Assembly (NCBI GenBank): GCA_028684915.1
Contig: JAQUEZ010000140.1
Location: forward strand, 1-15,798
Direction: 5' to 3'
From: Desulfobulbus sp.
GTDB lineage: Bacteria; Desulfobacterota; Desulfobulbia; Desulfobulbales; Desulfobulbaceae
DNA length: 15,798 bases
Both the position numbers and the translations under genes were made by a program. This document shows, piece after piece, positions 1-15,798 of the stretch. A model generated the notes under the pieces. The model was given only the letters and a program-made list of their open reading frames with translations. It had not been told where the DNA came from and searched no databases. Each line of letters begins with the position of its first letter. The stretch's first letter is position 1.

Positions 1-1065
1 CTGCAACTGCATTACGATAATCGGATATTGCCGCTGACCGAGTTGCTGCACCTCTTGGAGACGCTTGAGCAGGAGATCGCCGGATTCGAGGAGTGGGATA
101 TCCCGGCACGGACTGTTTCTCTTCCCTTGAGCTGGGATGATGAGGCCACCCACACCGCGATTCAAAAATACATGCAGTCGGTGCGGCCGGATGCGCCCTG
201 GTGTCCATCCAACATCGAGTTTATCCGCCGGATCAACGGCCTTGACTCGGTTGAAGAGGTCAAGGAGATCCTCTTTAACGCCAGCTATCTGGTCATGGGG
301 CTGGGGGATGTGTACCTGGGCGCGCCTGTGGCCACGCCGCTTGATCCGCGACATCGTTTGGTGACCACCAAATATAATCCTGCCCGTACCTGGACCCCTG
401 AGAATGCGGTGGGGATCGGCGGTGCCTACCTCTGCGTTTACGGCATGGAGGGGCCAGGAGGCTATCAGTTCGTCGGGCGGACGGTGCAGATGTGGAACCG
501 CTACAACACGACTAGGGAGTTTGAGCGGGATAAGCCGTGGTTGTTGCGTTTTTTTGACCAGATCAGGTTCTACCCGGTCAGTCACGAGGAACTCATGCAG
601 ATGCGCCACGATTTCCCTCATGGAGCGGCCGGATTGAAGATAGCAGAGACCAGCTTTAACCTCCGCCAGTATCAAAGTTTCCTTGAAGCCAATCAAGAGG
701 CTATTCAACAGTTCAAAAAGCGGCAGCAAGACGCCTTTGAGGCCGAGCGGCAGGCTTGGATTGATAATGGGCAGCTCAACTTCCATAGCGAAGAGCCACT
801 GGAGAGTGAGCCCGAAGAAACGGTGGCTTTGTTTACAGGCTGCGCGCCAGTGGTCAGTCCGGTGGCGGGCAGCCTGTGGAAGCTACAGGTGGAGGCGGAA
901 GCAACGGTGCAGACTGGCGATACCATAGCCATTGTCGAGTGCATGAAGATGGAGATCAGCCTGAAAGCGCACTGCAACGGGGTGATCAAGCAGATTCTCT
1001 GTGTCGAAGGAGAGCGGGTCGCTGCCGGTCAGTTCTTGGCCAGTGTATTGCCCGAGGAGGTTTGA
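1..1065 (+). CDS. uca: Urea carboxylase, C-terminal part (5' end outside window)
   Basis: This is the 3' part of a biotin-dependent urea carboxylase (EC 6.3.4.6), which carboxylates urea to allophanate using ATP and bicarbonate in the cytoplasm. The frame is open from base 1 with no stop, so the visible 354 codons are only the end of a protein that is normally about 1,200 residues; the biotin carboxylase (ATP-grasp) half lies to the left of the window. Visible first is the end of the KipA/AHS2-type carboxyltransferase domain, with the very characteristic stretch [20 protein letters not shown] near codons 140-159 followed by RTVQMWN. A biotin carrier domain closes the protein, and its biotinylation motif ECMKMEI puts the biotinyl lysine at codon 946-948. 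The internal TTG at base 28 is not a credible start, because homology would begin far upstream. The gene is 3 bp from the allophanate hydrolase gene, so the two form an operon. Identification is secure; only the N-terminus is unseen. Confidence 0.95.
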
Positions 1066-1068
1066 GTC

Positions 1069-2841
1069 ATGCAATTAAATATCGGCTATCTGCAGGAACA
1101 GTATCGCAAGGCTGAATTTACCCCACGCCAGCTCATCACCGATCTTTTGGCTCTGTGCCGGGACGAGGATCCGGCCATCTGGATTCATCTGTTGACTGAG
1201 TCCGAGATCGAGCCCTATTTACAGCGCCTGGAGTCGGCGTCAATGGACGATCTGCCCCTCTACGGAATCCCCTTTGCCATCAAGGACAATATCGACCTGG
1301 CAGGAGTGCCAACAACCGCTGCCTGCCCGGAATTCAGTTATCTGCCCGAGGAGTCGGCCACGGTGGTGACGCTGTTGATTCAGGCCGGGGCTATTCCCTT
1401 GGGCAAGACCAATCTGGATCAGTTTGCCACCGGCCTGGTGGGCACGCGTTCGCCCTATGGCATCTGCGCCAATAGCTTTAATCCCGATTTTATTCCCGGT
1501 GGTTCCAGCAGCGGCTCGGCTGTGGCTGTGGCCAAGGGGCTGTGTACCTTTGCTTTAGGCACGGATACCGCCGGTTCGGGCCGGGTTCCGGCTGCCTTTA
1601 ACAATATTATGGGCCTCAAACCCTCTCGTGGCCTGCTCAGCACCAAGGGCGTGGTCCCGGCCTGCCGCAGCCTTGACTGTGTGTCGATTTTTGCCCTCTG
1701 TAGCGGAGATGCTGAGGCCGTCTTGCGGGTAGCCGCCGTTCATGATCCCAAGGATCCTTATTCCCGCCGCGTTGGAGCCGGTTGCCTCAATGGGGGAGGA
1801 GAGAGTGCGTTTACCTTTGCCGTGCCTGAAGATGGGCAGCTGGAATTTTTTGGTAATGCGGCCTATGCGCAGAGTTTTGTGGACACCACGACCTTGCTGG
1901 AATCACTCGGTGGGAAAAAACAGCGTGTTAATCTGCAACCCTTTACTGAGGCGGCCAAACTCCTTTACGAGGGGCCCTGGGTTGCGGAGCGCACAGCAGC
2001 AGTCGGTCCTTTTCTCCAAGCGTCCCCTGAGGCCGGGCATCCGGTCACCAGGCAGATTATTTGCAACAGCCAGGACTTCACTGCAGTCGACCTTTTTCAG
2101 GCGCAATATAAACTGCAGGCTCTCAGGACGCAAACCGATGCAATCCTTGCTCAGGTCGACTGCCTGGTCCTGCCCACCGCCGGAACCTGTTACACCCGTA
2201 AGGAAGTACAGGCCGATCCGATGCGGCTCAACAGCAATCTGGGCATCTATACCAATTTCATGAACCTGCTCGATTACTGCGGACTCGCTGTGCCGGCGAG
2301 CACCAACGGTCCGGTGCCCTTTGGAGTTACCCTGGTGGCTCCGGTATTCCACGAAAATATCCTGCTGGCACTCGGTTCCCGGCTTCATGAGGCTGCAAGG
2401 TTGCCCATGGGTACCGGCGATCAACTGCCGCCTCCATACGCTGCGCCCATAGGCGAAGACAGCGTATTGCTCATGGTTTGTGGTGCCCATCTGCAGGGGC
2501 TGCCGCTCAATCGTCAGTTGGTGGAGCTCCATGCACACCTGGTGAAGCGGACTGCCACTGCTGCCACGTACCGTATGTTTGCCCTCGAAACCCAGCCGCC
2601 TAAACCGGGGCTGATTCGAGACGTACACAAGGGCGCCGCCATTGAAGTGGAGGTTTACTCTATACCACTGAAAAATCTTGGTCCTTTTACCGCCCAAATT
2701 CCCCATCCGCTCGGCATCGGCAAGGTGGAGCTGGCAGATGGATCCTGGGTAAGCGGCTTTATCGCCGAGCCCGTAGTGATGGAGCAGGGAAGGGAGATTA
2801 CCTCGTTTGGCGGTTGGCGGGCATACCTCACCCAGCGATAA
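1069..2841 (+). CDS. atzF: Allophanate hydrolase
   Basis: This 590-residue cytoplasmic amidase-signature enzyme (EC 3.5.1.54) hydrolyses allophanate, the product of the preceding urea carboxylase, to ammonia and CO2. The Ser-cisSer-Lys triad is visible: Lys72 in IKDNIDLAG, cis-Ser146 in GGSSSGS and nucleophile Ser170 in GTDTAGSGRVP. Their spacing matches the AtzF family, where the equivalents are K91, S165 and S189. The C-terminal domain (about 455-590) has the family features VCGAHLQGLPLN, IPHPLGIG and DGSWVSGF; in related enzymes this domain takes part in a second step that finishes breakdown of the intermediate. Length is typical of a stand-alone AtzF. The ATG at 1069 is preceded by GAGGAGG, which lies inside the last codons of urea carboxylase, so translation is probably coupled. 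In yeast the two activities are fused as one urea amidolyase; here they are separate polypeptides. The gene ends 25 bp from the convergent flavoprotein gene, and no obvious terminator lies between them. Confidence 0.96.
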   Translation: MQLNIGYLQEQYRKAEFTPRQLITDLLALCRDEDPAIWIHLLTESEIEPYLQRLESASMDDLPLYGIPFAIKDNIDLAGVPTTAACPEFSYLPEESATVVTLLIQAGAIPLGKTNLDQFATGLVGTRSPYGICANSFNPDFIPGGSSSGSAVAVAKGLCTFALGTDTAGSGRVPAAFNNIMGLKPSRGLLSTKGVVPACRSLDCVSIFALCSGDAEAVLRVAAVHDPKDPYSRRVGAGCLNGGGESAFTFAVPEDGQLEFFGNAAYAQSFVDTTTLLESLGGKKQRVNLQPFTEAAKLLYEGPWVAERTAAVGPFLQASPEAGHPVTRQIICNSQDFTAVDLFQAQYKLQALRTQTDAILAQVDCLVLPTAGTCYTRKEVQADPMRLNSNLGIYTNFMNLLDYCGLAVPASTNGPVPFGVTLVAPVFHENILLALGSRLHEAARLPMGTGDQLPPPYAAPIGEDSVLLMVCGAHLQGLPLNRQLVELHAHLVKRTATAATYRMFALETQPPKPGLIRDVHKGAAIEVEVYSIPLKNLGPFTAQIPHPLGIGKVELADGSWVSGFIAEPVVMEQGREITSFGGWRAYLTQR

Positions 2842-2866
2842 GGGCGTGGCCACCCAAGAGGCTGTA

Positions 2867-3982
2867 TTAGTCGCTGCCCTTGAACGCCTTGATAAATTTT
2901 CGGTCAATTTGATCCTTGAGATAAAAGGCCAATTTCCCTGAAAACGTTATGGACCATTTGGATAAAATACCCTCGCCATCTCCCAGGTTGTAGATGAGCA
3001 GGTAGGTGCCGCCGGGTTGGAATTTTTTTAGTGGTTCGTTTGCAAGCGCGGCGAACAGGTTGTGGTACAACACCGGATTTTGGCGTACGGCATAGACACC
3101 GACCTTAGCCAGGGGCTCGTTTTCAAAATAAATGCAGTCGCCGCCACCAAAGATATGGGGAGAGCCCACTGACTGGAGGTAGGCGTTCACCCGCAGCCCA
3201 CCGTCAGGGCCGACAGGCAAACCGGACCGGGAAAAAAGGGGCGATGGTTTGACGCCTATTGAGAAAAAAAGAAGATCAGCTTGGTGTTCCTGACCATTTT
3301 CGAGCATGATCCTGTCGTCCGTTACCTGCTGCACGTAGCCGTTTTCGAGAATTTCCACTCCCTTGCGCGCGAGAATCCTTCTGGCCAGGGTGCGGACTCG
3401 CTCGGGCCTGGCGGAAAGAAAATGGCGCCCTGCAAAAATGCGGATAATTGGCATGGTGACAGCCTTGCTTCGACACAACTGATGGATATTCCCGGCTATT
3501 TCAACAGCGGAAGGGCCGCCCCCGATCACCGCAATGGTCATCTGCGTGGATGCCGTTGATGCAAGTATCCGTTGTTGCGCTCTATGCAGATCCTCTATGG
3601 GCTTGGCGGTGAAAATATTGACCGCATTCCCCTGAATCATTTCTCTGGGAACGTAAGACCCAGCATTGCAGGAAAGCACATCATAAGGGAGAGGTGTTTT
3701 CTTGCCCTTCAGATAGAGCTGCTGCGCAACGGGATCGATTCTTTCGACCTTGTCGAGAATGAATTGCCCGCCTTGAGCCTCGACAATCTTCCGGGTTGCA
3801 AATCGAATGTCTTCAGGGCGATAGGTTCCACCCAGCATTCCCGGTCCCATACCGCTGTAGTAGTGGTGTTCGGAAGGTTGAATGACCGTGACCCCGAATC
3901 CCTTGTCAATGAACCTGCGGAGGTTGGCCAGGGTGAGCATGTGGGCATGACCGCCGCCGATAAGCACGAGTTGTTTGTTCAT
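2867..3982 (-). CDS. FAD/NAD(P)-dependent oxidoreductase, SelD-flavodomain/NDH-2-like
   Basis: This 371-residue two-dinucleotide-binding-domain flavoprotein has an N-terminal FAD-binding GGGHAH motif (9-14), the YYSGMGPGMLGG segment (41-52), a second nucleotide-binding motif AVIGGGPSAVE (151-161, NAD(P)H) and the C-terminal FAD-contact motif IFGGGDC (277-283). The GGGHAH start, the YSGM-PG segment and the C-terminal FSGK..FYLKDQIDRKF signature resemble the flavoprotein module fused to the N-terminus of SelD (selenide, water dikinase) in some bacteria; type II NADH dehydrogenases and sulfide:quinone reductases are more distant relatives. The kinase half of SelD is absent, so this is a free-standing version and its electron acceptor cannot be read from sequence. 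I see no CxxC redox pair typical of disulfide reductases. ATG at 3982 is preceded by AGGGTGA at proper spacing. It is convergent with atzF and lies 272 bp downstream of the acetoacetyl-CoA synthetase gene. Family is confident; substrate unknown. Confidence 0.85.
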   Translation of the reverse strand: MNKQLVLIGGGHAHMLTLANLRRFIDKGFGVTVIQPSEHHYYSGMGPGMLGGTYRPEDIRFATRKIVEAQGGQFILDKVERIDPVAQQLYLKGKKTPLPYDVLSCNAGSYVPREMIQGNAVNIFTAKPIEDLHRAQQRILASTASTQMTIAVIGGGPSAVEIAGNIHQLCRSKAVTMPIIRIFAGRHFLSARPERVRTLARRILARKGVEILENGYVQQVTDDRIMLENGQEHQADLLFFSIGVKPSPLFSRSGLPVGPDGGLRVNAYLQSVGSPHIFGGGDCIYFENEPLAKVGVYAVRQNPVLYHNLFAALANEPLKKFQPGGTYLLIYNLGDGEGILSKWSITFSGKLAFYLKDQIDRKFIKAFKGSD

Positions 3983-4015
3983 CGCTCACCCTAAAGTTAC
4001 CCTGATGTCTGGTCC

Positions 4016-4040
4016 CGGCTCTTCCTGTGCTGGAGAGCCG
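4016..4040 (-). promoter_or_regulatory. Stem-loop in the 5' leader of the flavoprotein gene
   Basis: A perfect 7-bp inverted repeat, CGGCTCT/AGAGCCG, is separated by 11 bases. Read on the minus strand, two further C:G pairs can form inside it across a single bulged A, leaving a loop of about 6 bases. It lies 34-58 bp upstream of the ATG at 3982, with no U-run after it, so it is not a classical terminator. It may be a leader hairpin or a protein-binding dyad; its function is unknown. Confidence 0.45.
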
Positions 4041-4049
4041 TACAAGCAT

Positions 4050-4080
4050 TTCTGCCGTCTGTTTAATGCCACAGGCAGAA
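4050..4080 (-). promoter_or_regulatory. Second inverted repeat upstream of the flavoprotein gene
   Basis: A perfect 7-bp inverted repeat, TTCTGCC/GGCAGAA, is separated by 17 bases. It sits 9 bp from the 4016-4040 stem-loop on the upstream side of the flavoprotein gene. Two well-formed stems in tandem suggest a structured leader or tandem operator sites. No known riboswitch consensus was recognised by eye. Confidence 0.35.
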
Positions 4081-4103
4081 CTCTGGATGCTGAGGTTGTA
4101 ATT

Positions 4104-4195
4104 GTCGTTCTCGTAAAAACTCTCGAGAACGACGTTTCGAGCTTCGTAACATACTGTATTTACAGTACGTGAATTCTCGGATTTCGACTTTTTAC
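4104..4195. repeat. Palindrome-rich repeat element (MITE/REP-like candidate)
   Basis: Three nested symmetries occur in about 90 bp. The first is a perfect 10-bp inverted repeat, GTCGTTCTCG (4104-4113) and CGAGAACGAC (4124-4133), with a 10-base spacer. The second is a perfect dyad, TACTGTA-TT-TACAGTA (4152-4167). The third is an outer terminal pair, GTAAAAA (4113-4119) and TTTTTAC (4189-4195), continued by partly matching TCG/CGA-rich sequence. The layout resembles a short non-coding mobile or REP-like element between two minus-strand genes. The TACTGTA dyad looks superficially like a LexA box, but its halves are too close for the E. coli consensus (CTG-N10-CAG). No transposase is present. A protein-binding regulatory region is the alternative. 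Confidence 0.45.
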
Positions 4196-4254
4196 TAGGC
4201 CATCATAATTGCCGGCCGCTCAGGAAATCGAAGTATTTACGGCGCCATCAACCC

Positions 4255-6267
4255 TCATTGCTGCAGCTGCGGTAAATCGGCAAACAGCAGCAAGACCTCC
4301 GGGTTTTTCAGGGCATCTTTGTTGGTCACCTCTTTGCCGTGCACAATTTTGTGTACCGCCATCTCCACCTTCTTCATGTTCAGGGTGTAGGGAATATCCT
4401 CGACCTGGACGATCTTGGCCGGTACGTGGCGTGGCGAGGCACCCTGGCCGATTTCCGTTCTAATCTTTTGCTCCAGCATCGGGTTTAATTCACTGCCTTC
4501 GGATAACTTAACAAAGAGTACCACCCGTACGTCGTTATTCCAGCGTTGACCGATGACCACCGAATCATCCACGCCGTCGATTTGCTCCATGATCCGGTAA
4601 ATTTCCGCCGTACCGATACGCACTCCGCCGGGATTGAGGGTGGCATCAGATCGTCCGTAAATGATTAGGCCACCCCGATTGGTCACCTCGACATAGTCGC
4701 CATGGGTCCAGATACCGGGAAAGCTATGGAAGTAGGCGGCACGGTATTTGGCACCGTCCGCATCATCCCAAAAGTAAATCGGCATCGACGGAAAGGGCGC
4801 GGTACAGACCAGTTCTCCCTGCTGTCCCACTACCGTTTTGCCGTCTTCATTGTAGGCAAAGACTTTCATTCCCAGGCCGCGACACTGCAATTCACCCTCA
4901 AAGACCGCTCCCATGGGATTACCCAGGGCGAAGCAACCGTTGAGGTCTGATCCGCCCGAGATCGAGGCAAGTTGCATATCCGCTTTGATTGCAGTGTAGG
5001 TAAAATGAAAATCTTCCCGTGACAGAGGCGATCCGGTGGAGAGCAGGGCTCGAAGCGGCCCGAGGTCGACAATTTCCTTTGGCCGAACCCCGGCCTTTTT
5101 CAGGGCAGCGATGTACCCGGCACTGGTTCCGAACACCGAAATTTTCTCCTCCTCAGCCATTTTCCACAGCGCATCCGGGGCGGGATGGAAGGGGTTACCA
5201 TCATAGAGCACCAGGGTTGCGCCGACCCCGAGTCCCGCCACGAGCCAGTTCCACATCATCCAGCCACAGGTGGTGAAGTAGAAGAGTGTGTCCTCTCGTT
5301 TGACGTCGGTGTGCAGCAGCTGTTCCTTGAGTTGGTTGATCAACACCCCGCCCGCCGACTGCACCATGCATTTTGGGAGACCGGTGGTTCCTGAGGAGTA
5401 CATGATGTACACCGGGTGGCTAAAGGGCAGTTGGGCAAAGTCGATTTCAGGGGAATTGTTGCCGTTGTTGGCGATGAAATCTTGCCAGTGGAGTGCGCGC
5501 TCGCCAAGTGCGCCTAGATCGGGGCTCTCACTGATGTAGGGAACCACGACGATCTTTTCCAGGCTAGGCAGGTGGGAGATGATGCCGCCGATTCGTTCCA
5601 GGCTATCAATTGGTCGGCCTTTAAAAAAATAGCCGTCAGCAGTGAACAGGACCTTGGGCCGGGTCTGGCCAAAGCGATCGAGCACTCCCTTGGTGCCGAA
5701 ATCCGGTGAACAGGATGACCAGATCGCGCCGATGGCGGTGGCGGCAAGCATGGCGATGATCGATTCGGGCATATTCGGTAGGAAGCCGACCACCCGGTCG
5801 CCGATTTCAACGCCTACTAGGCGGAGGGCAGCGGCCACCTTCGCGACCTCCCGATACAGTTCGGCATAGCTCAGCGTTTTGCGTATTGCATCTTCACCGC
5901 GAAAGATCAGCGCGGTTTGATCATCCCGATAGCGCAACAGGTTCTCGGCAAAGTTGAGCCGTGCTCCGCGAAACCACTGTGCACCGGGCATTTTGCTCGG
6001 GTCGTCAATTACCTCGTCATAGGGTTGGGAGGCAATGATCCCCGCGTATTGCCAGAATTCACTCCAAAAAGCGGCAAGCTCACTGACCGACCAGTCGTAC
6101 AGTTCGTCATAATTGGAAAAGTTCTTGGCCTGGTTGCGGTTCACTTGCTCGATGAAACAGGCCAGGTTGGTTTGGCTGATTCGCTCTTCAGACGGCTGCC
6201 AGAGAGGTTGAACGTTTGCTGTAGCGGATAGCTGAACAGGCTGTGCCGGTTGTTGTGGTTGTCCCAT
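4255..6267 (-). CDS. Acetoacetyl-CoA synthetase (acetoacetate--CoA ligase)
   Basis: This 670-residue cytoplasmic ANL-superfamily ligase (EC 6.2.1.16) converts acetoacetate, ATP and CoA to acetoacetyl-CoA, AMP and PPi, feeding ketone-body use or polyhydroxybutyrate/acyl metabolism. The family N-terminal signature PLWQPSEERI is at 21-30. The P-loop YSSGTTGLPK is at 290-299, the long A5-type region SGGSDLNGCFALGNP at 437-451, the adenylate-binding THGDYVEV at 521-528, YGRSDATLNPGGVRIGTAEIY at the hinge (537-557), and the putative catalytic lysine K632 lies in NMKKVEMAV. Length and motifs distinguish it from acetyl-CoA synthetase. Before the conserved region there is a Pro/Gln-rich lead (MGQPQQPAQPVQ) of about 20 residues. 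The ATG at 6267 has an AGGGGGA ribosome binding site four bases upstream. The gene stands alone: 469 bp separate it from the permease gene upstream and 272 bp from the flavoprotein gene downstream. Neighbours give no pathway partner such as a thiolase or CoA transferase. Confidence 0.95.
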   Translation of the reverse strand: MGQPQQPAQPVQLSATANVQPLWQPSEERISQTNLACFIEQVNRNQAKNFSNYDELYDWSVSELAAFWSEFWQYAGIIASQPYDEVIDDPSKMPGAQWFRGARLNFAENLLRYRDDQTALIFRGEDAIRKTLSYAELYREVAKVAAALRLVGVEIGDRVVGFLPNMPESIIAMLAATAIGAIWSSCSPDFGTKGVLDRFGQTRPKVLFTADGYFFKGRPIDSLERIGGIISHLPSLEKIVVVPYISESPDLGALGERALHWQDFIANNGNNSPEIDFAQLPFSHPVYIMYSSGTTGLPKCMVQSAGGVLINQLKEQLLHTDVKREDTLFYFTTCGWMMWNWLVAGLGVGATLVLYDGNPFHPAPDALWKMAEEEKISVFGTSAGYIAALKKAGVRPKEIVDLGPLRALLSTGSPLSREDFHFTYTAIKADMQLASISGGSDLNGCFALGNPMGAVFEGELQCRGLGMKVFAYNEDGKTVVGQQGELVCTAPFPSMPIYFWDDADGAKYRAAYFHSFPGIWTHGDYVEVTNRGGLIIYGRSDATLNPGGVRIGTAEIYRIMEQIDGVDDSVVIGQRWNNDVRVVLFVKLSEGSELNPMLEQKIRTEIGQGASPRHVPAKIVQVEDIPYTLNMKKVEMAVHKIVHGKEVTNKDALKNPEVLLLFADLPQLQQ

Positions 6268-6335
6268 AATTCCCCCTGTTGTCCGTGATCAGATGGCCGA
6301 TATTGTAGAAAAAACTGCAACGGTTAGAGACAAGG

Positions 6336-6358
6336 CATTTGGAAATCATCTCCAAGTG
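6336..6358. promoter_or_regulatory. Imperfect dyad upstream of acetoacetyl-CoA synthetase
   Basis: The half-sites CATTTGGA (6336-6343) and TCCAAGTG (6351-6358) are complementary at seven of eight positions, with 7 bases between them. The dyad lies about 70-90 bp upstream of the ATG at 6267 and about 30 bp upstream of the minus-strand TACAAT. Its position and symmetry would suit an operator for a dimeric regulator, but this rests on symmetry alone. Confidence 0.25.
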
Positions 6359-6562
6359 GATTTACTTCAGCAGATTACCACCTTTTTTTCTAACACCCTG
6401 GGGGGTGATGTGCAACAAGTTGATAAGACGAATTTTTCAATATAAATCGATGAGATATTGAGTGGCTCAACGCGTAGCGAAAAGCAGGATGGGGAATGGG
6501 AAAAAGGTGACGTGGTCGATTGGATCAGGAAAGGGATGGATTGCGAGCGAACAGGGAACACG

Positions 6563-6577
6563 GGGCCGTTTCGGCCC
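6563..6577. terminator. GC-rich hairpin downstream of the NRPS-permease operon
   Basis: A perfect 6-bp GC inverted repeat, GGGCCG/CGGCCC, has a TTT loop and lies about 160 bp after the permease stop. On the minus strand no U-run follows, so it is not a canonical intrinsic terminator. On the plus strand a T-rich tract (about 6601-6611) follows, but only after more than 20 bases. It is the most stable hairpin in the interval and may mark the 3' end of the operon transcript. Confidence 0.25.
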
Positions 6578-6736
6578 GGCTACGGCGCATTATTCGAATA
6601 CTTTTTTCTTTCCCCGACTTAGATGAAAATGGCTGGCGGCAGTCAGGCGGGAAGCATCGATCCAGCACTCCAAGCCAGGTTGATCTGGGGCGATCGTTGA
6701 TATGGTCCAGGTCCAGTACATCGATAACAGGGGGCA

Positions 6737-8044
6737 TCAACCAGCCAGGGTTTTCAAGAGTGTTCCGAGTTTAAAAGAAAAGAGTATCAGAGTGCCAGTC
6801 AGCAGAACGAAGAAAATCGATGGTTTCCTCAGCACTGTGAAGCCATGGGTGCGTATGAGGACCACACAGGGCAGAATGAAAAGGAAAATGGCGACGAGGG
6901 GTGAGAGTACCAGCCCGAAAAGATTCATAATGGAAGGATTTAAAAGGGATAATATCCAGAGGCTTACAAAAAGGGAAAGCAAAACGGATATGTTAAGCCG
7001 TTTGTTTGGTTGAGAGGATGGACAATCTCTTTTACTACCTCGGACAACAAGGGGCAGGAAGCGCTCCGTTAGTTGTAGGGCTGACTCCTGGACAGCAAAA
7101 AAGACGCCCATGAAGGAGGTAATCAGCGCGGCAAGGCCGATTATTGGACCAACTTTGGCGATGATTGGCGAGATGCCTTCTTTAGCGCTCAACAGGGCGA
7201 GGCAATTGAGATTGGTTGTCGCCGCTGTTTTGAACGCGTCGGGGGGGAGGGAGAGCAGGCAGGAGAAGACGAACAAAAGGACGAAGATCAGGAGCAGCGC
7301 CGTTGTTTTCAGGACGATGCGGTTAAGGCATTGTGGCCCGTTGTTTTCATTGGCCTGGCGAGAGACCCGGAAGGCCGCCACCATGGAGGACGATGCAGGG
7401 AAAAAAACGAAGGAAATCGTGAGGATTGGGAGAATCAATAAGATGTCATCGGCGAAACGGAACAATGATGGTTTGTTGATATAAGGCATGATATCCCAGA
7501 AGGGGATCAGATAAACGGAGATAGCGAAGAGGAGAATTAACAGGGCCAATGAGATGGCGCTCATCACCCGCAAAATGACTTTGGCGCCAATCAGGTAGAG
7601 CACGCCAAAGCAGGCCACGACGAGTAGGCTGAGCCAGGATTTCCCTTCGCAATTGGTAGATGTCACCCCCAGCTTGAACAGAAAATTGGCCAGATTGTCA
7701 GTCAGGCCAACCAGATACGAGAAAAGTAGAACGTAAAAGGTAAGGAAATAGACGATGACTATGCCTTCGCCAAAAAAATGACCAAAACGCCTAGCCAGGA
7801 CGTTTGCGTAGTCCGATTCTTCCGGCTCTGAAAGAAGCATGGTGACGACGGTTTTGTGCGAAAAGTAAATCAGCGGGAACAGGAAAACTGAGAGGAAGGC
7901 GAGCGACCAGAGGCCCGTAAGGCCCACCTGCACCGGAAGATAGAGAATGCCAGCACCAACGGCGGTGCCGAACAGGGTGAGTATCCAGCTCCAATCGCTG
8001 AATGGAGCTGGTGCGAAAGAGGACTTTTGGTCCATGTCACTCAT
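6737..8044 (-). CDS. Amino acid permease of the HAAAP (SdaC/TdcC-like) family
   Basis: This 435-residue inner-membrane protein has about 11 hydrophobic segments. The N-terminal WSWILTLFGTAVGAGILYLP (19-38) matches the first helix signature of hydroxy/aromatic amino acid permeases such as SdaC and TdcC, followed by GLWSLAFLSVFLFPLIYFSHK. Further family-like features are SFVFFPASSSMVAAFR (211-226) and the C-terminal helix pairs. Family members are about 430 residues long and import serine, threonine, tryptophan or tyrosine with protons or sodium. The start ATG overlaps the NRPS stop codon as ATGA (8041-8044), and no strong ribosome binding site precedes it, so translation is probably coupled to the synthetase. 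The context suggests it supplies a precursor amino acid, or possibly handles the product; specificity cannot be read. Sampled lines of this gene are about 42-48% GC against about 60% in the NRPS, which hints at a different origin. Confidence 0.85.
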   Translation of the reverse strand: MSDMDQKSSFAPAPFSDWSWILTLFGTAVGAGILYLPVQVGLTGLWSLAFLSVFLFPLIYFSHKTVVTMLLSEPEESDYANVLARRFGHFFGEGIVIVYFLTFYVLLFSYLVGLTDNLANFLFKLGVTSTNCEGKSWLSLLVVACFGVLYLIGAKVILRVMSAISLALLILLFAISVYLIPFWDIMPYINKPSLFRFADDILLILPILTISFVFFPASSSMVAAFRVSRQANENNGPQCLNRIVLKTTALLLIFVLLFVFSCLLSLPPDAFKTAATTNLNCLALLSAKEGISPIIAKVGPIIGLAALITSFMGVFFAVQESALQLTERFLPLVVRGSKRDCPSSQPNKRLNISVLLSLFVSLWILSLLNPSIMNLFGLVLSPLVAIFLFILPCVVLIRTHGFTVLRKPSIFFVLLTGTLILFSFKLGTLLKTLAG

Positions 8045-11000
8045 GGCAGGAAGCCTTGGCGTTTGAGGTAGTCCACATAGAGGGGAATGAGGGTGTTATA
8101 GTCCGCCGCATAGTTGATGCCAAGGTCTGCCAGGGCGGCAAGTGTAGCCGTTTGTTCGGTTGGTGGCGCTTCGCCTGAGAGGTCGCCGGTGTAAAATTCT
8201 TTGATCTGCGTGAGGCCGTTATCTGCGGCAAGGCTGGCGAGACGCTTTTGCCATTCGGCTGCCGGTTCCGGGCGGGCTGAGCAGTCGCACTTGGCAAGAG
8301 CCCGGAAGAAGTCATGCAGGCTGAGTTCGTTCGGGTTGGAGAGATTGGCGACAAGCATCTCTGTTCGGGGAGTGAGCGCCAGACCGGCAATTGCGCGGGC
8401 AAGCAGATCAACAGGCGTCATTTCAACGGTATTGGCTATATCCGGGTAGCTGCCAAGTTGCAGGCAACCCTGATTGAAGAGCCAAAAATGATTGTTGGCA
8501 TAGTTGCTGAAACCATTGGCGCTGCAACCGGTGATGTTACCGGCACGGGCAATGACGGTGGGCAGGCCGTAATGCCTGGCGCATTGGGCAACAAGCTGTT
8601 CACCCACCCATTTGGTCAGCAGGTAGCCGTTATCGACGACAGGCGGATTGGGTAAAATGGCCTCATCTGCTCGGGTCGCGCCTTCAATCGCGGTGGCGAC
8701 GGAAAGGGTGGAGACGAAGCAGAACGTTTTTCGGCGTTTAGCGAGAGCGAGTTTCAGCAGTTCGATTGTGGCATCTACGTTGGCGGCCTTCATGGTGGCG
8801 TAATTATGCAGATGATGGACGAAGGCGCCGCAGTGAACAATGGCATCTATTTGCTCGGCAAGCCTTTGGTGGATATCGTCGCTTAACCCCAATCCTGGCT
8901 CGGCAAGATCACCGGGGAGGATGCGTACTCGGTCAAAATCAGGTGTTATCCCCGCTTCTTTTGCCTGTTTACGAAGACTTTCGAGACCATCGGCCTCATC
9001 ACGACAGCGCAGGAGGCAGTATACGGTTTCGCAGCGACGGGTCAGTTCGTTGAGCAGGAAGGAACCGAGGAAGCCGCGCGCGCCGGTGAGCAGGACCTGA
9101 CGCAGTTCTGCGACCTCTGCTGGTGCGGGTGCGGGATTGGCAATGACGAGTTCGGCCCTGGCGTCACTGATGGCCTGTTGGATGTGATTGACGCTTTTAC
9201 CGGCGGCCAGCGCTTCAATAGTTGACGCGCCGTAGAATTCTGCCATGGTGAACGAGATGCCAAGCTGCTTGTAGACTTCAGCCTGCATCCGGACGGCCAG
9301 CAGAGAATTACCGCCAACGTGGAAGAAGCTGTCATCGCGGCCGATGCCGCGATAGCGCAATATCTGTTCCCAGATGTCGGCGATCTGCCGTTCAAGCCCG
9401 TCGTGCGGGGGATTGGCGCTGATCTTTCCGGCAACGGTGGGCAGGGCCTTGCGGTCAATCTTGCCGCTGGGGCCAGCCGGGAGGGCATCAAGGCGGACGA
9501 AAAATGAAGGAACCATGTAGTCGGGCAAAAACTGGCTGGCATGTTGGCGCAGGGCTTCGTCATCGAGTTCCTGGTCGGCGAGATAATATGCCGCAAGATA
9601 GCGATTTTCACCCTCACCCTTGGCAGCGCAGACAACATGTTTCAGGCCGGGGAAGGTGCCGATGGACGCCTCAATTTCGCCAAGCTCGATGCGGAAACCG
9701 CGCAGTTTGATCTGCGCGTCATTGCGACCAAAAAACTCGATGGTGCCGTCGGGCAGAAAACGACCCAGGTCGCCGGTCAGATACATCAGCGCATAGGGGG
9801 ATGGGTCGAAGGGATCTATGACGAACCGTTCGATGGTGAGATCATCCCGGTTCAGATAGCCGCGGGCGAGATTATCGCCGCCAATGCAGATTTCGCCGAC
9901 CGCACCAAGTGGAACGGGCTGTTTGAAGCGGTTGAGCAGGTACATGCGATAGCCGGCGAGCGGCTTACCGATGATGCGCGGATTGGCATCCGGGAGCACT
10001 TGCCCGTGCGAAGACATAACGGTGATTTCGGTTGGACCGTACAGGCTTAACAGGCGGGTGCGGCGGGACCACCAGTCGGCTGTCCGTTCGTCAAGGACAT
10101 CGCCACCGAAACCGAGCATCCGCAGTGAGGGGATTTCTTCCCGCGGCAGATTCTGGAGGACGACAGGCGAGAACAGAGCGTGGGTGACGCCGATTTTGGT
10201 GAGCGTGCGATGCAGGGCAATGGGATCTTTTCGGTCCGCCTCGGGGATGACGGCGAGGGTATGGCCGCCAAGCAGGCAGGGGAATATTTCGACGACGCTG
10301 GCATCGAAATTCATGGAGGCGATGAGGGACGAAATGCTGTCGTCGCTGAGCTCAAAGGCGTCGGCAGAGGCCAGCGCGAGGCGTACCACGTTGGCGTGTT
10401 CGATCATGACACCCTTGGGCTGGCCGGTGGAGCCGGAGGTGTGAATGATATAGGCGAGGGTGTTCGGAGCCACCGGTGGCAGGGCGGTTGTGGCTGCCAC
10501 GGCCTCGGCCAGCGGATCTATAAAGTCGAGGTGGTCAAGGCCAATGGCGCAAAGCGCGGTATGGCTTTCCGCGTCGGCTGCGACATGGCGGACAGCACTA
10601 TTCTCCACAAAGAAGCGTACACGGTCGGGTGGATAGCTCGGGTCGAGCGGAATATAGGCGCAACCAAGTTTGAGAATAGCGAGCACGGTGGCGATGAGTC
10701 CGTCGCTCTTTTGCATGCTCAGGCCAATGCGTTCGCCGGGGATCACGTATTTGGCAAGTCCGGCGGCAATGCGGTCGGTCCAATCGGCAAGTTCAAGAAA
10801 GGTGTGGCGGCGTTCGTTAAAGATGAGTGCCAGTCGCTCCGGATGGAGTTGTACCACTTCATTAAAACGCTCGGGAATAGAGGCGTTGTGCTGATCAAGG
10901 CGAGGTCCGCAGGAAAGAGCCATGAAGCGGGCAAGCGTTGCGTCCGACTGGTAGGTTAGTTCGTTGATGCGCGTCTCGGGCTGGCGGGCGACAGCATCGA

Positions 11001-14000
11001 TGATTGTTTTGAAGTTATCTAAGAATCCGGCGATTGTTTCTGAACGGAAGAGCGAGCTGTCATATTCGACACGTCCCTCGATGGCGCCATCTGCACATTG
11101 GTAGAAGATACCGGCCAGATCGGTCTTGGAGGTCTTCGAGGGGAATTCGTCGGCCTGATATGTTGCGCCACCGAAGCTGCCTTCAAGCCCTATACCGCTC
11201 TGAAGGCTGAAAATGAGGTTGAGGGATTCGAGCCCGGCGATTTCCGCGTCAAGAGGAGTGGCGATCAAGTGTTCCTTGTCATCGAGCATTTGGCGGTGGA
11301 CGGCCAGCGCCAGGTCGTTAAAGGAACTGCGTGGCTGCACGGTCTGACGCAGGTATCCCACAGTCACAAAGGCGCCGTATATTTCCTCGGTACCGGGGAT
11401 GTCGCGTCCGGCATAGGGGTAGCTACAGACAATCTCCTCCTGGCCGGTAAGTCGCCATATCCAGGCGATATAGAGCGCCATAAAGAGGGGCGAGAGCGTT
11501 ATGTTCTGCGAATCGGCGAAGGCCTTGAGGTCAGCAACGGTTTGCGGTTCGATGCGCAGATGGATAAAGGCATTGGCATCGGGCCTTTTTTGGCGGGAAT
11601 CGGCGGGTAAATCGGTGTGCGCGTCAACACCAGCGAGTTTCTTTTTCCAGTAGGTGATGGAATCGGCAAAAACCTGGCTGCCGGGTAGACATGGCGCCCA
11701 GGACCAGTAGTCAAACCAGGTCAGGCGGGTCGGGACTGTCCGGCCTTCGTAACGGGCAGCGAGTTCTTCCAGGAAGAGATTCAGGGACCAGCCGTCAAAG
11801 AGGGCGTGGTGGATGCAGAAGATCAGTGAGGTTTTTCCATCGGCGGTGCAATGGATTTCCGCACGGCAGAGGGGCGAACAAGTCATGCCAAGCGGTTCGT
11901 TGAGCAAAGCCTGGGCGCGAGCGCTGATGCCATCGGAGGATGTGTCGACAAGTGGGATGGGCGGCAATGCCTCTTCGGATGCGCGAAGCCACAGCCTGCT
12001 CTGCTGTTCAGCGAAGGCGGCCCGGAAGACGGGATTGGCCGTAAGCAGTTCATGGTAGGCGCTGCGGAGAGTCAGTGGATTTATTTCCCTTGAGAAATCG
12101 ATGCGCACCACAATGTTGTAGGTGTTGTCACCGGGCTGGCCCAAGGTTCGGCTATACATCATGTCGATGAAGCGGTTGGCGACCATCGCCGAGGTTTGTC
12201 CGGTGGCGGTGAGCGGTGGCAACGGATTTTTTTCGGGTGCTGTGCCACGGACCTTGTCGCAGAAATCGGCCAAAACGGGATGCTCAAAGAGTTGCTTGGG
12301 GCGGAAGGTGTTGCTAAGCGCTGCTGAGAGTTTGCTGCACACCAGTGCTGCGAGTAACGAATGCCCACCCAGATGGAAGAAATGGCTGCCCGGCCCCAAC
12401 GAGGTGGCCGCAACGTTCAACACGCCGGCCCAGATGTCGCGAACCTGCATTTCAAGTTCGTCGAGCGGTACCGCCGAGACGGTTGCATCGTCGTCGTAGG
12501 TGGGCATTGGCAGGCGGGTGCGGTCAATCTTGCCACTGATGTTGAGCGGAAACGAATCGATGGGGATCAGGAAACTGGGGATCATGTAATGCTGCAGGCG
12601 TTGCTCCAGACGCTTGCGCAGCGTGTCCGGCTTGAGACCGGTGCCGGTGTACCAGGCCAGTAACTGTTTACCACCGGCTTGTTCAAAGGCCCCGACGTAG
12701 ACACCCCTCACTTCCGGCTGCTCAGTGATGGCGTTTTCGATGTCGCCAAGTTCCATGCGGAAGCCGCGGATTTTTACCTGAAAATCACTGCGTCCCAAAA
12801 ATTCGAGTTCGCCGCTGGGCAAAAAACGGCCAAGATCGCCGGTGTGGTAGATGCGACCGGGACCAAAGGGATTGGGGCGGAATTTTTCGATGTTGAGTTC
12901 AGGGCGACCGAGATATTCGCGAGCAACGGAGGGGCTGCCAATGACGATTTCTCCGATTCCCCCGAGTGGAGCCAACTCTTCGTTGGCATCCAGCAGATAG
13001 ACCTGGTAGCCATGCAGGGGACGTCCGAGATTATTGGCAGCCTTGTAACCGCCCATGCGATTGATTGTGGCCATTACGGTAGCCTCTGTGGGACCGTAGC
13101 CATTAGCGAGGTCAACCGCCTTCGACCAGAAACGAACGGTATCTTCATCGCCTGCTTCGCCGCCGCAGACGATAGCACGCAAATCCGGAAGGGGGCGACG
13201 GGGCAACAGCCGCAGCAGTGCCGGTGGCAGGAAAGCGTGGGTGATGCGCCGAACGTTCATTAAAGTGAAGATTGTCTCAGGATCACCGCGCAACTCGCTG
13301 GGTACGACGACCAGTTCCGAGCCATGGCTGAGGCTATTAAAAATTTCCAGTACGCTGGCATCAAAGTTGATTGAGGCAAATTGCGTCCAGCGGCAATCTG
13401 GTCCGCAATCCCAGACGCCTTCCAGCGAGGCGATAAAATGAGCCAGCATGCCCCGTTCGATGACGACGCCTTTCGGTTTTCCAGTCGTGCCGGAGGTGTA
13501 GATGATGTACGCGGTCTGGTGGGCGATGGCAGTGGGATTGGCCGGTGGCGTGATGGGCACCGGGTGGTCCAGCAAATCGTCGATGTTCAGCACCGGGCAA
13601 TCGACGACGGAGGCAATCAAGTCGTATGTCGTTGCATCGGCAATCACTGCGGCCAGTTTGGCATCACCGGCAATAAAGCGGAGTCGTTCGGCAGGCATCT
13701 GCGGGTCCAGCGGCACATACCCGGCCTTGGCTGCCAGCACGCCGAAAATAGTCTGGATCATCCGTTCACTGCGAGACAAACACATGCCGATCAGCACCTC
13801 GGCTGTATCGCCGACATGAGAAGCGAGATGGGCGGCAACGGAACCGGCACAACAGGACAGCTCGGCATAAGATAGTGTCGTTTCGTTGAAGCGAAGAGCT
13901 GGTGCGTCAGGCGTCCGGGCACAAACGTCGGTAAAGAGTGTCAACACATCGGCCACGGGTGCCAGCAGGGCACCGCCATCGGCAAGGGCCAGGGCCTTCT

Positions 14001-15261
14001 GGTGGAGCGGTGCAGTGAAGAGACGGATGTTTTCCACCGGCAGGTCAATGTCTTCGGGAAGATGATGAAGCATGGCCAGATAGTGGTCAAACGCCATACG
14101 CAGACTTGAGGTATCCTGCGGTGAGCGGGTCAGGGCGTGGAAGGAGATGGTGTCCTGAATATCAAAATAGATGCCGATGTCCTCGATCTGAATCTGATGG
14201 GATATACTGGGCAGCAAGGTAACGGTGACACCTTTGAGCTGTAATTCACGGTAGGGCTGGACGTCTTCATCGAAGAGTACGTTGGAGAGCCGGTAATCCG
14301 GGTACTTGCGTTTCAGTTCCAGAATAATCTCGCGCGTGGGCAGGTCAGAGTTGTACAGCGCCTGCGCGTAGAGCCTGGCCGCCTGGCGTAAAAAACCCGA
14401 TACGGTCTGGCCATCCGTCAGAAGGCTCTTAAATACAAGCGGATTTTCGTTATAGCCGATCTGGTCGGGCAAACCCGTGCGGATACGATGGCAATTTCGG
14501 GTCAGTATCATTTCGCTTCTGGTAACGCGAAACAGGAACAGATGAAATGAAAATAACAGCAGCTGGTTGAGGCCGATGCCAAGTTTCGTTGCTACCTCAC
14601 CTAGGGCGGCACTTTCTTTTTCCGGCAAGGCAACGTGGAAATAGGTGTCGGCCACATCGCTCTCGACACGGGCCGGACGCCACTCGAACGACGCCTTTTG
14701 CGTCAGTTGCAGCCAGAAGCGCATGCTTTCATCGTAATAGTCGCTTTCCATCAGGGCTTTTTCGCTATCGAGCAAGAGCTGTTGCGGTAAACTAAGATTT
14801 TCCGGCAGTGTCTCGCCACGATAGGCCGCAGAAATCGCCTTGAACAGCGGCTTGAGGGAAAAACGGTCGACGATCGCTGGATGACAGACAAAAACGAGAT
14901 GACTCTCTTTGCATCCCCGCAAGAGACAGAACAGGTAGGGAGCACCGCCGTCCAGTCGAAAAAGGCGATTGCGCAGGGTATCAATCAGCGCATGCGCGGT
15001 GTCCTGGCTGTCGCCGACATCAATCGTCTCAAGTCCCACCTCTGTGGAGTCGCTCTGGAAAATGCGCTGGGAATCATCCACCCGCAACACGCGATAAGAG
15101 AAAGAAGGACATCGCTGAACAACGTGACAGACTGCCTCGTGCAACCGTTTCTCATCAAGTGCACCTTCAAGCCTGAAAACGGTGCAGCGGTTACTGATCC
15201 GATCACTCCATTCAATGATGGTCTGCTGATTCTCTGTCAATTTGTGGGTTACAAAGTGCAT
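8041..15261 (-). CDS. Two-module NRPS with terminal reductase: C(degenerate)-A-T-C-A-T-R
   Basis: This 2406-residue non-ribosomal peptide synthetase is expected to join two amino acids and release the dipeptide by NAD(P)H-dependent reduction. Domains counted from the ATG at 15261 are as follows. C1 is about 5-417, with HPAIVDR (127-133) where HHxxxDG is expected. A1 is about 437-917 (P-loop YTSGTTGKPKG 588-598, catalytic K911). T1 carries phosphopantetheine Ser968 in HLGGHSLL. C2 is about 1017-1432 with an intact HHALFDG (1151-1157). A2 is about 1457-1937 (HTSGSTGQPKG 1607-1617, K1934). T2 carries Ser1986 in HVGGNSLL. The reductase is about 2052-2406, with the Rossmann motif TGARGFLG (2059-2066) and an SDR-type Y2213/K2217 pair. 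There is no thioesterase, epimerase or methylation domain. The ATG is chosen over the TTG 54 bp upstream because GGAG stands 5 bases before it and a likely promoter overlaps the TTG. The permease follows in an ATGA overlap. No phosphopantetheinyl transferase or MbtH gene is in the window. The product is unknown. Confidence 0.93.
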   Translation of the reverse strand: MHFVTHKLTENQQTIIEWSDRISNRCTVFRLEGALDEKRLHEAVCHVVQRCPSFSYRVLRVDDSQRIFQSDSTEVGLETIDVGDSQDTAHALIDTLRNRLFRLDGGAPYLFCLLRGCKESHLVFVCHPAIVDRFSLKPLFKAISAAYRGETLPENLSLPQQLLLDSEKALMESDYYDESMRFWLQLTQKASFEWRPARVESDVADTYFHVALPEKESAALGEVATKLGIGLNQLLLFSFHLFLFRVTRSEMILTRNCHRIRTGLPDQIGYNENPLVFKSLLTDGQTVSGFLRQAARLYAQALYNSDLPTREIILELKRKYPDYRLSNVLFDEDVQPYRELQLKGVTVTLLPSISHQIQIEDIGIYFDIQDTISFHALTRSPQDTSSLRMAFDHYLAMLHHLPEDIDLPVENIRLFTAPLHQKALALADGGALLAPVADVLTLFTDVCARTPDAPALRFNETTLSYAELSCCAGSVAAHLASHVGDTAEVLIGMCLSRSERMIQTIFGVLAAKAGYVPLDPQMPAERLRFIAGDAKLAAVIADATTYDLIASVVDCPVLNIDDLLDHPVPITPPANPTAIAHQTAYIIYTSGTTGKPKGVVIERGMLAHFIASLEGVWDCGPDCRWTQFASINFDASVLEIFNSLSHGSELVVVPSELRGDPETIFTLMNVRRITHAFLPPALLRLLPRRPLPDLRAIVCGGEAGDEDTVRFWSKAVDLANGYGPTEATVMATINRMGGYKAANNLGRPLHGYQVYLLDANEELAPLGGIGEIVIGSPSVAREYLGRPELNIEKFRPNPFGPGRIYHTGDLGRFLPSGELEFLGRSDFQVKIRGFRMELGDIENAITEQPEVRGVYVGAFEQAGGKQLLAWYTGTGLKPDTLRKRLEQRLQHYMIPSFLIPIDSFPLNISGKIDRTRLPMPTYDDDATVSAVPLDELEMQVRDIWAGVLNVAATSLGPGSHFFHLGGHSLLAALVCSKLSAALSNTFRPKQLFEHPVLADFCDKVRGTAPEKNPLPPLTATGQTSAMVANRFIDMMYSRTLGQPGDNTYNIVVRIDFSREINPLTLRSAYHELLTANPVFRAAFAEQQSRLWLRASEEALPPIPLVDTSSDGISARAQALLNEPLGMTCSPLCRAEIHCTADGKTSLIFCIHHALFDGWSLNLFLEELAARYEGRTVPTRLTWFDYWSWAPCLPGSQVFADSITYWKKKLAGVDAHTDLPADSRQKRPDANAFIHLRIEPQTVADLKAFADSQNITLSPLFMALYIAWIWRLTGQEEIVCSYPYAGRDIPGTEEIYGAFVTVGYLRQTVQPRSSFNDLALAVHRQMLDDKEHLIATPLDAEIAGLESLNLIFSLQSGIGLEGSFGGATYQADEFPSKTSKTDLAGIFYQCADGAIEGRVEYDSSLFRSETIAGFLDNFKTIIDAVARQPETRINELTYQSDATLARFMALSCGPRLDQHNASIPERFNEVVQLHPERLALIFNERRHTFLELADWTDRIAAGLAKYVIPGERIGLSMQKSDGLIATVLAILKLGCAYIPLDPSYPPDRVRFFVENSAVRHVAADAESHTALCAIGLDHLDFIDPLAEAVAATTALPPVAPNTLAYIIHTSGSTGQPKGVMIEHANVVRLALASADAFELSDDSISSLIASMNFDASVVEIFPCLLGGHTLAVIPEADRKDPIALHRTLTKIGVTHALFSPVVLQNLPREEIPSLRMLGFGGDVLDERTADWWSRRTRLLSLYGPTEITVMSSHGQVLPDANPRIIGKPLAGYRMYLLNRFKQPVPLGAVGEICIGGDNLARGYLNRDDLTIERFVIDPFDPSPYALMYLTGDLGRFLPDGTIEFFGRNDAQIKLRGFRIELGEIEASIGTFPGLKHVVCAAKGEGENRYLAAYYLADQELDDEALRQHASQFLPDYMVPSFFVRLDALPAGPSGKIDRKALPTVAGKISANPPHDGLERQIADIWEQILRYRGIGRDDSFFHVGGNSLLAVRMQAEVYKQLGISFTMAEFYGASTIEALAAGKSVNHIQQAISDARAELVIANPAPAPAEVAELRQVLLTGARGFLGSFLLNELTRRCETVYCLLRCRDEADGLESLRKQAKEAGITPDFDRVRILPGDLAEPGLGLSDDIHQRLAEQIDAIVHCGAFVHHLHNYATMKAANVDATIELLKLALAKRRKTFCFVSTLSVATAIEGATRADEAILPNPPVVDNGYLLTKWVGEQLVAQCARHYGLPTVIARAGNITGCSANGFSNYANNHFWLFNQGCLQLGSYPDIANTVEMTPVDLLARAIAGLALTPRTEMLVANLSNPNELSLHDFFRALAKCDCSARPEPAAEWQKRLASLAADNGLTQIKEFYTGDLSGEAPPTEQTATLAALADLGINYAADYNTLIPLYVDYLKRQGFLP

Positions 15262-15296
15262 TACTACTCCAGAGTCTAAAATTTTGGTGTTCTCTG

Positions 15297-15325
15297 AGCG
15301 TATGTTTGAGGGCAAAAATTGTCAA
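15297..15325 (-). promoter_or_regulatory. Sigma70-like promoter for the NRPS-permease operon
   Basis: On the minus strand a perfect -35 TTGACA (15325-15320) is followed, after 17 bases, by TACGCT (15302-15297), which keeps the T, A and final T of the -10 consensus. Transcription would start near 15290, about 30 bases before the ATG at 15261, with GGAG at 15267-15270 as ribosome binding site. This arrangement excludes the TTG at 15315 as a start codon if the promoter is real. Confidence 0.5.
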
Positions 15326-15474
15326 AGAGAAATAATCGCCACCAATCCTTAGGGTTTATCGTTCACCAGAGGGAGCGGTTTTATTGTAGTACGAGAGAGG
15401 GGGAGCAATTTTTGTGTGCAAAACCGGATAGTTCTTGATGGATCTTGGTCTTGGCGTAGCATTGTTATCAATGA

Positions 15475-15517
15475 TGCGTCGTAAAGACTTCGATCTCCTG
15501 CGTCGCAGCTTTTTTAC
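15475..15517. repeat. Short repeat-like element with GTAAA / TTTTTAC ends
   Basis: TGCGTCG occurs twice (15475-15481 and 15499-15505) in direct orientation. The segment is bounded by GTAAAG (15481-15486) and CTTTTTTAC (15509-15517), which are imperfect inverted repeats. The ends echo the GTAAAAA/TTTTTAC termini of the element at 4104-4195, and both have adjoining CTTCGA/TCGA-like bases. They may be degenerate copies of one dispersed intergenic repeat family; two short partial matches do not prove it. Confidence 0.3.
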
Positions 15518-15644
15518 AGATTTTCGACATACCTGATGTATGCCTCCGCACCATGAAGAAAACTACTCCCTGTATATCTGTGGTTTTACTTAGCCATTCC
15601 TTAGAGTGTGATGGACTTTTTCCCCGGCCGTTATCAATGAGGAT

Positions 15645-15704
15645 AAAAAAAAAGGGTCATGCCTAGAGAGCTTGTTGGACGAAGCCGCTGCGCGGCAGAC
15701 AAGC
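15645..15704 (-). terminator. Possible weak terminator for a minus-strand gene beyond the right edge
   Basis: Read on the minus strand, a stem GCTTGT/ACAAGC (15699-15704 with 15670-15675) encloses an inner GCCGC-TGC-GCGGC hairpin (15684-15696). A run of nine T (15653-15645) follows after 16 bases. The gap between stem and T-run is too long for a classical intrinsic terminator, so the call is tentative. It would end transcription entering from the right, upstream of the NRPS promoter. Confidence 0.2.
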
Positions 15705-15798
15705 CCCGAGCGCCCCTGATTGCTCATAATGAACATGTTGTGATCTCAGACATACGGTAATAGGTAGAAAGCGGCTGGACCAAGGCAAGGTCGGCCGC

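Follow-up and report, generated by a model that had tools for sequence, protein, structure and literature searches.

The window analysed here is the whole 15,798-nucleotide stretch of Desulfobulbus sp. contig JAQUEZ010000140.1 (positions 1 to 15,798). Its minus strand encodes a bimodular nonribosomal peptide synthetase (NRPS) built from condensation (C), adenylation (A), carrier (T) and reductase (R) domains, followed directly by an amino acid permease (Table 1). This single large enzyme probably couples two hydrophobic amino acids and frees the product by reduction, perhaps in the form of a reactive aldehyde that closes into a small ring. The reading frame is uninterrupted from an ATG at 15261 to a stop codon at 8041-8043. 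A TTG at 15315, 54 bases upstream, is a possible alternative start, but the ATG is preferred because it is preceded by GGAG at a distance of 5 bases and because the relatives are mostly of matching size: 26 of the 37 other full-length relatives (P0008-P0044, among the best 120 of 1442 protein search matches) measure 2403-2412 residues. With an intact frame of 2406 codons and 37 other full-length relatives at 55-87% identity, the synthetase lies far beyond chance.

Pfam analysis reveals a pair of matches each for Condensation, AMP-binding, AMP-binding_C and PP-binding and a single C-terminal NAD_binding_4 match, with no thioesterase family among the 8 Pfam families matched in the window. NCBIfam agrees with Pfam on a terminal thioester reductase domain placed after two C, two A and two carrier domains. 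Against Rfam, the window gave no match at or above a gathering score. The domain order and intact 2406-residue frame proposed in the initial annotation are confirmed, and its counts (two A domains, two carrier serines, one intact C domain, one R domain, no thioesterase) match the Pfam and motif results. Two A-T modules linked by one C domain predicted to be active, and a terminal R domain with an apparently intact NAD(P) motif and Tyr/Lys pair in place of a thioesterase, correspond to the layout of AusA-type synthetases.

Table 1. Features of the window (positions are those of the whole stretch)
Feature	Position	Strand	Basis or remark
Bimodular NRPS, C1-A1-T1-C2-A2-T2-R, 2406 aa	8041..15261	minus	Pfam domains, motifs, relatives
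C1, condensation-like domain at the N terminus, catalytic second His missing	13957..15261	minus	motif HPAIVDR at 14863-14883
A1, adenylation domain	12502..13941	minus	Pfam; ten-residue pocket code DALFVGGVMK
T1, carrier domain	12232..12459	minus	GGHSL, Ser at 12358-12360
C2, condensation domain, intact	10936..12138	minus	HHALFDG
T2, carrier domain	9202..9387	minus	GGNSL
R, NAD(P)-dependent thioester reductase domain	8047..9099	minus	GARGFLG, YLLTK
Amino acid permease, HAAAP (Ser/Thr, Trp/Tyr) group	6737..8044	minus	PF03222, TIGR00814
Acetoacetyl-CoA synthetase	4255-6267	minus	above NCBIfam cut-off; ~470 bases beyond the permease
FAD/NAD oxidoreductase, similar to the N-terminal SelD partner	2867-3982	minus	TIGR03169 below cut-off; no SelD part
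Urea amidolyase pair: C-terminal urea carboxylase part (biotin carrier end), then allophanate hydrolase	1-2841	plus	

Conservation of the catalytic residues was assessed in an alignment of 67 proteins, comprising 66 of the 93 matches P0007-P0045 and P0244-P0297 plus P0299 from outside the family. The other 27 of the 93 matches were aligned in a separate nearer set, and motif scoring was restricted to the 62 aligned sequences longer than 2100 residues. The T1 and T2 serines, the R-domain Tyr and Lys and, in C2, the second His, the Asp and the Gly are each preserved in 62/62 sequences. The scored carrier and reductase residues, whose loss would have counted against the initial annotation, are thus present throughout. 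This conservation also bears on whether the synthetase is a broken relic that makes no product, a very improbable explanation: it would fit a degenerate C1, but not the uniform retention of the other scored residues, nor the dN well below dS in all seven domains (one pair, window versus Desulfofustis, with dS above 1 and saturated).

C1 departs from this pattern. The second His of the motif is the catalytic residue in condensation domains, and in C1 it is lost in 60 of 61 scored sequences (P0299, which has no C1, appears as a gap); where HHxxxDG is expected, the window reads HPAIVDR. The Gly of the motif is replaced in 61/61 rows, whereas the first His is kept in 50/61 and the Asp in 61/61. 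In the nearer set, H127, P128 and D132 of C1 are invariant across 39 rows. The domain is nevertheless retained: of the 61 rows longer than 2300 residues, 60 cover 80% or more of its columns. C1 has changed more quickly than C2 (mean pairwise identities of 0.365 and 0.469, respectively), and in the one pair compared, window versus Desulfofustis, dN for this domain is 0.30 while dS, at 2.1, is saturated. Because of this retention and this dN, C1 is not decaying randomly; it looks like a domain kept without condensation chemistry, perhaps for a structural role. The family would offer a family-wide natural case of a kept, apparently dead condensation domain. An AlphaFold2 model of C1, built from six sequences, averaged a pLDDT of 51.4 and played no part in fold comparisons.

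From the motif we infer that C1 is catalytically dead. Since the second His is lost while the other scored catalytic residues are kept, module 1 is expected to begin from an unmodified amine, probably without acylation. An unlikely alternative is that C1 is active in another way, through an acylating starter reaction or non-canonical catalysis, which would yield an N-capped dipeptide aldehyde or alcohol unable to cyclise. The retention of C1, the purifying selection seen in the pair tested and the preserved first His and Asp would suit such a role, and the protease-inhibiting dipeptide aldehyde in the available text of PMC10979478 is a capped (Boc) form. The near-universal loss of the second His and the replaced Gly argue against it, as does the genomic neighborhood: no acyl-CoA ligase was recognised beside the NRPS in loci L002, L003 and L018 (judged by eye, with a family search only for one L002 transporter), and the acetoacetyl-CoA synthetase of the window sits beyond the permease.

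The adenylation pockets would suit hydrophobic substrates. The A1 code of the window has many DALFFGIVMK-like counterparts among the relatives, and most rows carry no charged residues beyond the usual Asp and Lys, at ten positions in A1 and A2 taken to correspond to those of GrsA. Searching code fragments against the literature gave no related paper among the best 25 of 94 matches, and the available main text of a paper on signature sequences contains no matching code. In one sub-clade (P0043, P0248, P0255 and P0293), the A1 code contains an acidic residue (DALDIGCV or DALEIGCV) and the A2 code reads DTIIGG(L/C)VQK; because of these differences, its members probably use other substrates.

Given a free amine on module 1, the product favoured, with moderate confidence, is a dipeptide aldehyde that would cyclise to a dihydropyrazinone or pyrazinone, C1 being non-catalytic. 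T1 and T2 would be phosphopantetheinylated by a transferase encoded elsewhere, after which A1 would charge T1, and A2 would charge T2, with a single hydrophobic amino acid. C1, as a retained non-catalytic condensation fold, would add nothing to the first amino group; C2 would form the single L,L peptide bond, and R, using NAD(P)H, would free the dipeptide as an aldehyde. Free-amine dipeptide aldehydes cyclise readily. Attack of the amine on the aldehyde would give a cyclic imine (the dihydropyrazinone), which any available oxidant would convert to the pyrazinone; cells of strictly anaerobic hosts may in fact produce the reduced form. In the parts of the literature available, the AusA aldehyde cyclises to an imine whose oxidation is likely spontaneous (PMC12153313), and C-A-T-C-A-T-R is the canonical order of pyrazinone synthetases (PMC10979478).

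Several observations weigh against this reading. The synthetase scores 930.2 bits against the AusA equivalog NF047350, far below the cut-off of 2500, and is therefore called AusA-like in layout rather than AusA. The first His of C2 is replaced in 6/62 sequences. Of the aligned relatives, P0261 alone has an HH pair in its C1 motif (CHHALLDQ, with Gly replaced by Gln), which may reflect chance or a partly active C1. The two joined amino acids are probably hydrophobic, but their identities could not be assigned from the codes. A PF01648 transferase match occurs in 5/5 relative genomes, but because this family also includes the ordinary fatty-acid carrier transferase, its presence is no proof of an NRPS-type enzyme.

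A further counterpoint concerns the R domain. Against NCBIfam equivalogs it scores 200.5 bits for MxcG, 194.5 for the Lys2 type and 91.7 for AusA; against solved structures, it scores 186.9 bits for MxaA, which we take to be part of the myxalamid synthetase, and 64.9 and 64.5 for the AusA R structures. MxaA and MxcG are thus its closest characterised relatives by sequence in these two comparisons, with the Lys2 type nearly as close. In the available text of PMC2835699, alcohol formation is assigned to several synthetases, those of myxalamid and myxochelin among them, and aldehyde formation to nostocyclopeptide, lys2 and saframycin. Because R is nearer to MxaA and MxcG than to AusA, a dipeptide alcohol, released after two successive reductions (four electrons) as reported for the myxalamid and myxochelin synthetases, is a serious if doubtful rival to the aldehyde. 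Two points temper it: the Lys2 type, which falls on the aldehyde side, scores close to MxcG, and cyclisation of a free-amine dipeptide aldehyde would compete with the second reduction. Sequence closeness of R is in any case a weak guide to oxidation state. The AusA-like, reductase-released synthetase of the initial annotation is upheld in its layout, with a first module that probably stays unacylated; the released product may be the aldehyde or the alcohol.

The cyclising dipeptide aldehyde further presupposes a phosphopantetheinyl transferase, and here the 'one-gene system' initially described is correct for the synthetase, encoded by a single gene, but incomplete for the pathway. In Desulfofustis glycolicus, the sole PF01648 match lies right after the permease (L001 18540-19361, minus strand, convergent). 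The window carries its acetoacetyl-CoA synthetase at that place, and a Pfam scan of its six main frames reveals no transferase; the enzyme would have to be encoded elsewhere.

The permease start and the NRPS stop share 4 bases (ATGA; junction CCATGAGT). The permease scores 40.9 bits against PF03222 (Trp_Tyr_perm, cut-off 22), placing it in the HAAAP family, and aligns over its full length with TIGR00814 at 246.7 bits, below the cut-off of 525.8. A permease search returned 55 members at 40% identity or more, window included, and then 63 at 36% or less, apart from P0187 (43% over 63% of the query). Linkage to the NRPS was approached through the sizes of the longest contigs, compared with those of 92 NRPS matches for which a size was available. 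Nine of the 55 near permeases (window included) lie on a contig exactly equal in size to an NRPS contig, versus 0/63 far permeases, and a jitter control gave a mean of 0.04 matches and a maximum of 2. Of the 29 near permeases on contigs of at least 9500 bases, 20 have no equal-sized NRPS contig; the equal sizes are thus an indirect sign of linkage, which they establish for part of the group only. Across eight pairs, identity to the window is 85, 82, 78, 65, 61, 53, 52 and 48% for the permease and 87, 86, 83, 73, 75, 70, 62 and 60% for the NRPS, a near-parallel order consistent with joint inheritance.

In the five genomes tested, the permease occurs in two, Desulfofustis and L003, each time directly after the NRPS. 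It is found in 0/3 genomes of the order of the Competibacteraceae metagenome-assembled genome (MAG), where G002 and G031 have other genes beside the NRPS. Because of this distribution, the coupling is a trait of a sulfate-reducer-type branch, and the NRPS can do without it in other hosts. The pairing noted initially is consequently real, with its 4-base overlap and its recurrence in sulfate-reducer-type relatives, but it does not extend to the whole family. Most simply, the permease would supply amino acid substrates; alternatively, it could take the product back up. Near-group permeases also occur in Desulfobotulus species (P0168, P0169 and P0177), and no NRPS relative so named is among the matches listed; either their NRPS lies outside those matches or the permease has its own separate role there.

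Reductase-released dipeptides of staphylococci and gut bacteria act as protease inhibitors and signals; for the window synthetase, the signalling or protease-inhibiting role proposed in the initial annotation would be speculative. A quite unlikely extension would make the product a dihydropyrazinone-type signal, stable only without oxygen and passed between anaerobes and sulfur-cycle neighbours (sulfate reducers, purple sulfur bacteria and Competibacteraceae), which the sulfate-reducer permease would reimport; one operon would then carry both signal maker and importer.

The family comprises at least 87 proteins longer than 2300 residues, window included. A whole-synthetase search using words from the first 500 residues (best 120 of 1442 matches) gave 38 full-length members including the window, 55-100% identical and 2367-2489 residues long, followed by one partial match at 50% and then by identities of 34% or less. 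An R-domain search (best 120 of 698 matches) added 54 matches, P0244-P0297, with R identities of 43-71%, before identity fell to 39% or less; 49 of them measure 2407-2485 residues. The full-length members added in this way are 36-70% identical to the window over the whole protein, and because further members thus appear at 36-55%, the identity gap below 50% in the first search is partly an effect of candidate choice.

Members named by source among the matches listed come from Desulfobulbus, Desulfonatronovibrio, Candidatus Competibacteraceae, Thiorhodovibrio frisius, Candidatus Riflebacteria, Paraburkholderia and Caballeronia; genome contigs add Desulfofustis glycolicus and Desulfobulbaceae, Competibacteraceae and Contendobacter MAGs. 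A quick tree of 90 rows (the 87 proteins plus three from loci; SH-aLRT support only, midpoint root) mixes phyla: Competibacteraceae rows are nested in a group that also holds rows from Desulfonatronovibrio, Desulfobulbus and Desulfofustis, and the Desulfobulbaceae row L003, a long branch, joins Thiorhodovibrio. Presence is patchy. In counts made with a C1 query, which include already known positives and may miss distant members, the synthetase is found in 2/257 genomes of the order of Desulfofustis, 3/40 of the order of the Competibacteraceae MAG and 1/395 when the Desulfofustis phylum is sampled evenly. Even sampling across the class of the Competibacteraceae MAG G002 gives 2/369, both already known, by C1 and by R alike. 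Because the tree mixes phyla and presence is patchy, the spread points to horizontal transfer. Among 72,556 plasmid records, no relative reaches 60% identity, the 20 best rows lying at 28-33%. Comparison of the upstream regions of the window and Desulfofustis shows no common stretch exceeding 12 bases.

Regarding the remaining neighborhood, there is no evidence that the acetoacetyl-CoA synthetase belongs to the NRPS unit; the urea amidolyase pair and the FAD/NAD oxidoreductase lie farther along the window. In two Competibacteraceae-order loci (L002 and L019), the NRPS follows shared neighbours that appear by eye to be outer-membrane assembly-like, and in the third genome of that order (L018) it sits at another place.

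Compared with known systems, the layout itself is already described, and what is new is a family for which no characterised member was found. No title on this synthetase family emerged among those listed from the open-access literature, a search that excluded most subscription papers and MIBiG. Its named isolates (Desulfofustis glycolicus, Thiorhodovibrio frisius and Paraburkholderia species) make it possible to ask what role such molecules play outside animal hosts. Among transporters, the HAAAP permeases (TdcC/SdaC, Trp_Tyr_perm) are the relatives of the window permease, which passes PF03222 and aligns with TIGR00814 over its whole length; together with sequences at least 40% identical to it, this permease stands apart from the next full-length ones, which reach 36% at most. 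Among synthetases, the C-A-T-C-A-T-R pyrazinone and dipeptide-aldehyde enzymes share the domain order of the window synthetase in the available text of PMC10979478, though no characterised one could be shown to belong to its family in a comparison that left MIBiG aside. Among the equivalogs and structures compared, MxcG and MxaA have the closest characterised R domains and belong to systems for which alcohol release is reported, but their assembly lines differ from the window synthetase. AusA, the aureusimine synthetase of Staphylococcus aureus, is alike in its two modules, terminal R domain, missing thioesterase and single working condensation domain. In the AusA profile of 2373 positions, the stretch 904-2293 is matched by query residues 949-2336, implying that AusA also has some 400 residues ahead of its first A domain. 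The window synthetase differs from AusA in its R domain, only distantly alike (64.9 bits to an AusA R structure), and in its gene context, which adds a permease and has no transferase in the six frames scanned.

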